From: Jiangella alba
GTDB taxonomy: Bacteria > Actinomycetota > Actinomycetes > Jiangellales > Jiangellaceae
Reading direction: 5' to 3'
DNA: 64,000 nucleotides
Assembly: GCF_900106035.1 (NCBI RefSeq)
Contig: NZ_FNUC01000004.1
Location: forward strand, 2,170,001-2,234,000
Positions 20,312-21,597 of the stretch are shown in pieces (the first letter of the stretch is position 1; every line of letters begins with the position of its first letter). Made by a program: the position numbers and the translations under genes. The notes under the pieces are model-generated. The model was not told the DNA's origin. It was given only the letters and a program-made list of their open reading frames with translations, and made no database searches.

Positions 20312-20357
20312 GAGACACGGCGGAGTCGTCCGGTCACCGGTGACTCCGCCGTGTCTC
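20312..20357 (+). terminator. Strong intercistronic hairpin between precursor A2 and the cyclase
   Basis: GAGACACGGCGGAGTC (20312-20327) pairs perfectly with GACTCCGCCGTGTCTC (20342-20357), a 16-bp stem; the 14-base loop itself contains CCGGT-C-ACCGG. No T-run follows. Position 13 bases after the A2 stop and 26 before the cyclase start suggests partial termination or 3'-end protection so that precursor mRNA exceeds enzyme mRNA. Confidence 0.8.
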
Positions 20358-20382
20358 GCTCGTGGTGTCGGGGGAGCATCGC

Positions 20383-21597
20383 GTGAATCCACATTCCGCC
20401 GCAGCGCGAATGGACGCCGGTTCGGCGCAATCCACGCCGCGCTATTTCCGGCTTTCCGCGTTCGAGATCGCCACGTCCTGGGTGCACGGCTCGTTGTCCG
20501 CGCCGCCACCTCCGGAGACGGCCGCGACTCCACGCGAGGCACTGGACGACGCCCTGCGCCCGGCACTGCTGCGCGCGCCGTGCTTCGTCTCGTTCTCCGG
20601 CGGGCGTGACTCGTCGGCCATCCTGGCGGCCGCGACGGCACTGGCCCGGCGCGAGGGGCACGCCGACCCCGTCCCCGTCACCGAGATCTACCCGGACGTC
20701 CCCGACGCCGACGAGGCGGACTGGCAGCGGCTGGTGGTCGAGCACCTCGGCCTGACCGAGTGGGTGCGGCTGCCGATCCGGGGCGAGAGCGACCTGCTGG
20801 GCGACGGCGCCAGGACCAGCCTGCTGCGCCGCGGCGTGCTGTGGCCGCCGCCGTTCCACGTCAAGGACCGGCTGTTCGAGACCGTCACGGGCGGGTCGAT
20901 CCTCACCGGTGAGGGCGGCGACGAGGTCATCGGGCCGCGCCGCACGACCCCGGTGACGCTGCTGGTGCGCAAGCGCCGCCGGCCCCGTCCGGAACTGCTG
21001 GCCGCGACCGCCGCCGCGCTGGCGCCGGGCCCGGTGCGCGCGTTCCGGGTGCGCCGTCAGATGAGCGGCGACGCGCAGCAGCCCTGGCTGCGTCCGGCGG
21101 TCGCCCGCCGGCACCGCCGGCTGCTCGCCGCCGACGAGGGGTCCGAGCCGCTGGCGTGGGACCGGTCGCTGTGGTGGGTGCGGCACCGCCGCGCCGTCGA
21201 CGCCGTCATCGCCAACTACTCCGCGCTGGGCGCCGAGTTCGACGTGGCCGTCGGCCACCCGCTGCTCGACACCGGCTTCCTCGCCGCGCTCACCCGCTTC
21301 GGCGGCCGGTGGGGGTTCGCCGGGCGCACCGCGCTGATGCGCATCCTGTTCGCCGACGTGCTGCCCGACGAGATCCTGCGCCGGTCCAGCAAGGCCAGCT
21401 TCGACCGCGCCTACATGGGCGAGCCGACGCGCGCGTTCGCCCGCGACTGGGACGGCTCGGGCGTGGACGCCGCACTCGTCGATCCCGAGACGCTACGGGC
21501 CGGTTGGCTGTCCGACCGGCCCTCGACCCTGTCCGGCACGCTGCTGCAGCAGGCCTGGCTGGCCGCGCAGCCCAGCCCTCCGCGAGGTGCCGCATGA
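20383..21597 (+). CDS. Lasso peptide cyclase (asparagine synthetase-like, C), short form
   Basis: A 404-residue member of the asparagine synthetase C family, which in lasso clusters activates the Asp/Glu side chain as an AMP ester and forms the ring amide. The ATP PP-loop SGGRDS is at residues 72-77 and GEGGDE further on. Typical lasso cyclases have about 200 residues of glutaminase-like fold before the PP-loop; here only 71 precede it, so that domain is missing. GTG 20383 follows GGGGGAG at a good distance; GTG 20362 would add only seven residues. The stop overlaps B2. Confidence 0.9.
   Translation: MNPHSAAARMDAGSAQSTPRYFRLSAFEIATSWVHGSLSAPPPPETAATPREALDDALRPALLRAPCFVSFSGGRDSSAILAAATALARREGHADPVPVTEIYPDVPDADEADWQRLVVEHLGLTEWVRLPIRGESDLLGDGARTSLLRRGVLWPPPFHVKDRLFETVTGGSILTGEGGDEVIGPRRTTPVTLLVRKRRRPRPELLAATAAALAPGPVRAFRVRRQMSGDAQQPWLRPAVARRHRRLLAADEGSEPLAWDRSLWWVRHRRAVDAVIANYSALGAEFDVAVGHPLLDTGFLAALTRFGGRWGFAGRTALMRILFADVLPDEILRRSSKASFDRAYMGEPTRAFARDWDGSGVDAALVDPETLRAGWLSDRPSTLSGTLLQQAWLAAQPSPPRGAA

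Follow-up and report, generated by a model that had tools for sequence, protein, structure and literature searches.

A probable single-domain variant of the lasso-peptide cyclase family encoded by Jiangella alba and other Actinomycetota

In the window (the whole 64,000-nt stretch of the Jiangella alba genome that was analysed), a short gene, here named C, lies in a lasso-type gene cluster. We interpret its product as a genuine lasso-peptide macrolactam cyclase, presumably catalytic, of which only the ATP-dependent synthetase domain typical of the AsnB superfamily is left, and we put the probability of this reading at about 85%. C carries an AsnB-type synthetase domain with an intact PP-loop and is encoded together with a precursor (A), an RRE (B1) and a B2 peptidase. 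C thus adds a new, single-domain form to the lasso cyclases, and we infer that it is an active minimal cyclase.

Gene cluster and reading frame

An earlier note on this DNA, made from the sequence, had placed C in an otherwise complete cluster, and the window indeed has a lasso-type set of A1, A2, B1 and B2 beside it (Table 1). The length of C and the position of its PP-loop given there were reproduced. The proposed cores are AASGRGRSDQVQWFRYDNDPGGVLS for A1 and AQGGQGSSDQFLWFKWGNDKPPGGGGLS for A2, each with a proposed ring from Ala1 to Asp9 and a C-terminal Ser. The genes C and B2 share 4 nt where they meet. No transporter gene was found beside the window's own cluster. The source genome comprises 7.68 Mb in 4 contigs.

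Table 1. Features of the cluster and a distant homologue of C, in window coordinates
Feature	Position	Strand	Details
B1, PqqD-like RiPP recognition element, 87 aa	19509..19772	+	PF05402 E 1.7e-16; NCBIfam lasso PqqD chaperone E 2.3e-13, below cut-off
A1, lasso precursor, 44 aa	19846..19980	+	NF033521 34.3 bits (cut-off 19)
A2, second lasso precursor, 47 aa	20156..20299	+	NF033521 33 bits (cut-off 19)
Hairpin between A2 and C, 46 nt	20312..20357	+	16-bp arms 20312-20327 / 20342-20357, perfect, no T-run
C, single-domain lasso cyclase, 404 aa	20383..21597	+	PP-loop SGGRDS at residue 72
B2, transglutaminase-like leader peptidase, 151 aa	21594..22049	+	PF13471 E 1.3e-12; NF033537 60.2 bits (cut-off 33)
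K, HPr-kinase-like, 318 aa	22046..23002	+	Hpr_kinase_C E 7e-5 and HprK-related models, all below cut-off
Asn-synthase homologue, full length, 625 aa	54605-56482	-	33 kb from cluster

A missing domain might have been hidden by a wrong start or a frameshift, as the earlier note had pointed out. An in-frame TGA at 20341-20343 shuts the C frame upstream and leaves at most 417 codons open, so an upstream start adding a domain is ruled out. The sequence GGGGGAG at 20370-20376 lies 6 nt 5′ of the GTG at 20383, and an alternative GTG at 20362 would give a protein of 411 aa. A frameshift or a sequencing error was excluded because other genomes carry an equally short frame. Compared with five congeners, dN/dS was 0.22-0.35 over the whole gene, which is therefore under purifying selection, and was higher (0.38-1.13) for residues 1-48. 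Truncation by a sequencing or assembly error, or gene decay, would fit a frameshifted copy in one metagenome-assembled genome (MAG), that of L074; however, relatives with the same short frame refute it, the in-frame stop and the dN/dS values also speak against it, and its probability is negligible.

The hairpin between A2 and C that had been noted earlier was confirmed, with the arms given in Table 1. The 75 nt past the A2 stop are predicted to fold at -52.2 kcal/mol. The hairpin is possibly an attenuator or an RNA stabiliser, and may determine how much precursor is made relative to enzyme. Strong folds were also seen 3′ of the last precursor in L010, L012, L015, L030, L031 and L032.

Domain content and predicted structure

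The sole Pfam match of C was Asn_synthase (PF00733) at residues 51-375 (E 1.9e-15, 57.9 bits, cut-off 21). Silence of Pfam on the N-terminal part proves little, because the same part of the window's 625-aa homologue was missed too. Length is more informative: only 71 residues precede the PP-loop of C, which leaves no room for a glutaminase-like domain and upholds the earlier statement that C lacks one. A two-domain architecture with this N-terminal domain is usual for lasso cyclases, though the literature consulted does not call it obligatory; C does not have it. Some 200 residues before the loop had been given as typical, in agreement with the 209-267 residues found in eight full-length cyclases of lasso-type clusters (the annotated chaxapeptin, lariatin-, albusnodin- and paeninodin-family clusters and four with lasso B2 neighbours). 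Against NF033535, the NCBIfam 'exception' model for lasso cyclases, which was run on two proteins only (C and the 625-aa homologue), C scored 18.4 bits with a cut-off of 525.

Comparison with actinobacterial C proteins, a check proposed in the earlier note, located the homology: in a profile comparison, residues 45-396 of C aligned with residues 204-595 of the chaxapeptin-cluster cyclase (probability 99.3%, E 1.7e-20). A search of PDB by sequence returned a single match (E 0.054) and no cyclase, so comparison was made by fold instead. The AlphaFold2 (AF2) model of C, built from 54 sequences, had a mean pLDDT of 93.3 and a pTM of 0.90. Residues 1-14 were the sole stretch of at least three residues with pLDDT below 50 and are predicted to be disordered; the first strand of the model is at 67-70. 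The segment before the loop, for which a structure prediction had been suggested, is thus only partly unstructured: the disordered tip is followed by a confidently predicted arm with a conserved motif (E28 in 89%, A30 in 87% and G36 in 93% of aligned members), which does not look dispensable.

Foldseek and VIA-align matched the C model to TsnB9, human ASNS, AsnB, beta-lactam synthetase and carbapenam synthetase (Z 14 to 19). TsnB9 was the best match (Z 18.8, rmsd 4.3, 313 aligned), followed by human ASNS (Z 16.8). Beta-lactam synthetase (1mb9_B) from residue 156 (Z 14.3, rmsd 4.3, 253 aligned) and carbapenam synthetase (1q15_A) from residue 158 (Z 15.5, rmsd 4.4, 260 aligned) were matched by the model from residues 20-25. 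Because these two rows start at 156 and 158, arm 20-48 of the model could correspond to the last part of the domain that was lost; the first aligned target residue varies by row, being 5 in TsnB9 and 208 and 232 elsewhere. No glutaminase-only structure occurred among the 50 matches listed, an absence that by itself excludes nothing. As a control we modelled L077, a full-length cyclase from a B1/B2 locus; this model was poor (pLDDT 60.6, 4 sequences only), and it matched the glutaminase folds of PurF, GlmS and EgtC, several of them over a stretch running from residue 2 to roughly 222 (Z 18 to 23).

Given that the best structural match, TsnB9, is a hydroxyamidotransferase and that C falls below the cut-off of the NCBI lasso cyclase model, C might be another amide-forming synthetase, for example an amidotransferase. 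We regard this as very improbable, since lasso precursors and both B genes flank C, the window has no other PF00733 gene less than 30 kb away, and phylogenetic analysis sets C beside lasso cyclases (see below).

Distribution and conservation of the short form

The earlier note had presented C as a stripped cyclase. The short form is real, but it is not a one-off: it represents a family of at least 50 Actinomycetota loci, whose sampled members form one clade. Short C was found in 16 of 198 genomes searched (own included), 12 of which (again including the own) belonged to the same family and showed 59-100% identity, the other four having 41-45%. A GTDB profile scan with an alignment of 14 members yielded at least 54 loci. 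At least 50 of these were short (L027-L076, E 2e-47 or better) and came from at least 48 assemblies, two MAGs contributing two loci each. All are titled Actinomycetota and they include at least 19 named genera of class Actinomycetes, as well as MAGs of Acidimicrobiia, Nitriliruptoria and Thermoleophilia; the nearest named relatives among the matches listed are Jiangella. L077-L080 were weak matches in the GTDB scan and are full-length. When 396 genomes were sampled evenly across the phylum, three matched at E 1e-40, including the window's own, indicating that the family is widespread but rare. The plasmid collection contained no relative of short C.

With the chosen starts, the 54 aligned short members measure 369-429 aa and have 53-80 residues ahead of the loop. 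The stop-to-stop frame leaves fewer than 200 residues upstream of the loop in 49 of 54; in the other five the frame stays open far upstream, yet a start codon is also available ahead of the conserved arm. SGGRDSS, D180, R315, R334 and K337 are identical in all 54. L052, L074 and L075 were omitted from this alignment. At L074 (5890-7204; PLCK01000121.1, the contig of L025/L026), the short cyclase lies in two frames of a MAG, probably through an assembly error. In L055, L057, L058, L059 and L062 (Amycolatopsis, Prauserella), each cluster has a pair of short cyclase genes together with two kinds of precursor, and NAGDE replaces EGGDE in one of the two cyclases; the paired enzymes may each act on a different precursor.

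Two trees, with 57 and 54 rows, were built with 32 of the 54 short proteins; L087, L088, L090 and L001 were dropped, and three long-branch rows were also dropped from the second. The 32 short proteins formed one group (100/100). This clade adjoins 14 actinobacterial full-length rows (13 lasso-type and one S. clavuligerus homologue) with support of 96/85, or 100/95 without the three long branches. The branch leading to it is long (1.84), and a topology holding all full-length lasso rows together, with the short clade outside, was not rejected (AU p 0.175 and 0.095). Loss of the domain from within lasso cyclases is favoured by these sequence trees, and a single loss in an early actinobacterial lineage would be the simplest reading.

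Other sources of the missing domain

The missing domain could be supplied in trans, for example by a full-length AsnB-like protein elsewhere. The own genome has five more PF00733 matches, in frames of 602-629 aa, and a further match (at least one) occurs in 9 of 10 other short-C genomes tested. The presence in the own genome of a full-length lasso-type cyclase (C4:644925-646601) and of the 625-aa homologue makes such action formally possible. Frames of 50 loci (5528 in total) were searched with two full-length profiles, because an earlier cyclase profile misses several full-length lasso cyclases. Among the matches listed, 4 of 50 loci (L032, L038, L039 and L061) had an AsnB-type frame longer than short C, or a fragment of such a frame, and L049 has a 662-aa frame matching the glutaminase part only; however, 45 of the 50 had neither a longer homologue nor a glutaminase-like frame in the stretch analysed. 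In the own genome, class II glutaminase models matched only frames of at least 616 aa, although they fail to recognise the degenerate N-terminal part of its full-length lasso cyclase as well, and a degenerate free domain could escape them. In addition, short C is the sole PF00733 match in G036 (an incomplete genome, 78%), and the model of C is confident alone. We consider a partner in trans improbable.

As a specific candidate, the window's 625-aa homologue was rejected, being distant from the cluster (Table 1) and located, as judged by eye, among glycosyltransferase/sugar-like genes. The full-length cyclase of the own genome (L003, 925-2607) and those of L082 and L083 are albusnodin-like, with LAGMDS or LAGVDS replacing SGGxDS.

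Neighbouring genes and precursors

Among the 50 short-C loci in the matches listed, B1-like frames were found in 45, B2-like frames in 44 and kinase-like frames in 48 (E 1e-5), using B1, B2 and K profiles grown on the short-C loci themselves and on L078. Within the stretch analysed, six loci had no B2-like and five no B1-like frame, some of them being on short contigs. Neighbour clustering of the same loci also gave an ABC-transporter-like group in 39 and the PF14907 nucleotidyltransferase-like group described below; two members of each of these groups were checked by Pfam.

Precursor-like frames adjoin C in most loci; no clear precursor was found in L053, L072, L075 and L076. Precursor rows were selected by eye among leader-pattern matches, by leader and place and not by Asp, and the leader Thr served as the counting anchor; 56 rows gave 52 different cores after removal of repeats, the two precursors of L027, which nearly equal those of the window, being left out. 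Asp occurs at core position 9 in 45 of the 52 and is absent there in seven; both window cores have it. Asp or Glu occurs at positions 6, 7, 8, 10, 11 and 12 in 3, 8, 8, 5, 12 and 2 cores, respectively. Position 9 is the ring residue if the cut falls after the residue following Thr(-2), which is where known lasso peptides are cleaved. A C-terminal Ser is present in 47 of 52 cores, and the first residue is Ala in 22, Gly in 19 and E, T, S, Q or V in the rest. In the precursors of L051, L064, L066 and L070, Asp is at position 10, not 9, from the leader Thr, which would mean that the leader is cut at another place or that the ring is larger.

These precursors bear on whether the product is threaded. 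With an open core pocket, short C might close the ring without threading and release an unthreaded branched-cyclic peptide, or threading might need B2 or K. An AlphaFold2 study of McjA/B/C has the core sitting deep inside a cavity of the full-length enzyme, so that loss of the domain could matter (PMC11420955), and the kinase-like gene that accompanies nearly all short C could be a helper. However, the cores keep the lasso pattern of an Asp9 ring and bulky tail residues (e.g., QVQWFRY), and both the leader and the processing genes are of the kinds usually seen in lasso clusters. Absence of threading, or a need for a helper in it, is in our view unlikely.

With regard to the kinase, the profile grown from K matched a gene of a paeninodin-family cluster (L103, 4833-5768) at E 3.5e-29 and a gene beside a haloarchaeal lasso-type cluster at E 4.6e-42, neither of which had been used in building it. 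The former is annotated as 'aldolase', probably a misannotation. The window has both an HPr-kinase homologue, whose kinase models score below curated cut-offs, and precursors with a C-terminal Ser. Judged from sequence, a kinase-coupled, paeninodin-like pathway would be the best reading of the cluster. The tailoring set of pseudomycoidin consists of a kinase and a nucleotidyltransferase, the kinase modifying the C-terminal Ser, according to the accessible parts of two papers (PMC9266682, PMC8498205).

Proposed mechanism and implications

Set beside the computed features of C (short form, conservation, predicted fold and loop) and of its cluster (gene set and precursor pattern), the following would be a plausible order of catalysis, phosphorylation and threading. 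B1 would bind the leader of A1 or A2, and K would phosphorylate the C-terminal Ser of the precursor. B2 would cut after the residue following Thr(-2) and so leave Ala1 with a free amine. C would then adenylate the side chain of Asp9 with ATP, using the PP-loop SGGRDSS, GEGGDE and Lys337 (the last in a catalytic role that we assume by analogy with AsnB and beta-lactam synthetase), and the amine of Ala1 would attack to give a 9-residue ring. For McjC, adenylation followed by amine attack is described in the part of the literature source available (PMC4979651). The N-terminal domain of full-length lasso cyclases is the relic of a glutaminase and, having no ammonia to supply, could be lost; in C, about 200 residues would have been replaced by an ordered arm of roughly 25.

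We know of no product, activity or structure for any short-C member. If the reading of C as a reduced lasso cyclase is true, a clade of natural single-domain cyclases, tied to precursor kinases, would fold lasso peptides and close their rings with no glutaminase-like domain. That domain would then be dispensable for threading, or its closing of the core pocket would be done by the short arm, B2 or the kinase; we lean moderately towards this wider conclusion.

A short or single-domain lasso cyclase was described in none of the open-access titles and abstract openings among the matches listed, a scope outside which subscription journals fall. McjC has about 200 residues before the loop. Given this length, we take the wording of a review, in its accessible portion, to mean that the activity and not the domain was lost; if the domain was meant, its absence from C would be less new. 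According to the available part of a 2026 review, a crystal structure of a lasso cyclase does not exist (PMC13352647). A natural cyclase this compact, some 370-430 residues long and confidently predicted in its fold, lends itself well to structure determination, to defining a minimal cyclase and to engineering. In addition, since the window's C scores below the NCBI lasso cyclase model, kinase-coupled actinobacterial lasso clusters may be under-annotated.

Comparison with known systems

The synthetase-domain fold of C is the same as that of beta-lactam synthetase, carbapenam synthetase, AsnB and TsnB9, whose PDB entries we take to have, in all cases, an N-terminal glutaminase-fold domain; the full-length control model of L077 matches these entries from residue 1 or 2. 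Cyclases of the chaxapeptin, lariatin-family and albusnodin-family clusters share with short C the homologous synthetase domain, the PP-loop, the GGD loop and a TKG-like lysine motif, and the chaxapeptin and lariatin-family loci, like the short-C cluster, have PqqD and B2 partners. The difference lies before the PP-loop, where actinobacterial full-length lasso cyclases have 216-232 residues. In addition, no kinase-like frame was found at 14 full-length actinobacterial places, whereas 48 of 50 short-C loci have one; the flanks searched were shorter in the former (1.5-5 kb vs 6 kb), making this a weak control.

Paeninodin and pseudomycoidin of Bacillota, which have an HPr-kinase homologue and a nucleotidyltransferase, resemble the short-C loci in their split B1/B2, HPr-kinase-like gene and Ser-ending precursors, as far as the accessible parts of the two reports describe them (PMC8498205, PMC9266682). 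PF14907 nucleotidyltransferase-like neighbours, found in 28 of 50 short-C loci by neighbour clustering of the matches listed, are a further likeness to both. The one paeninodin-family cyclase analysed, with 646 aa and 267 residues before the loop, is unlike short C.
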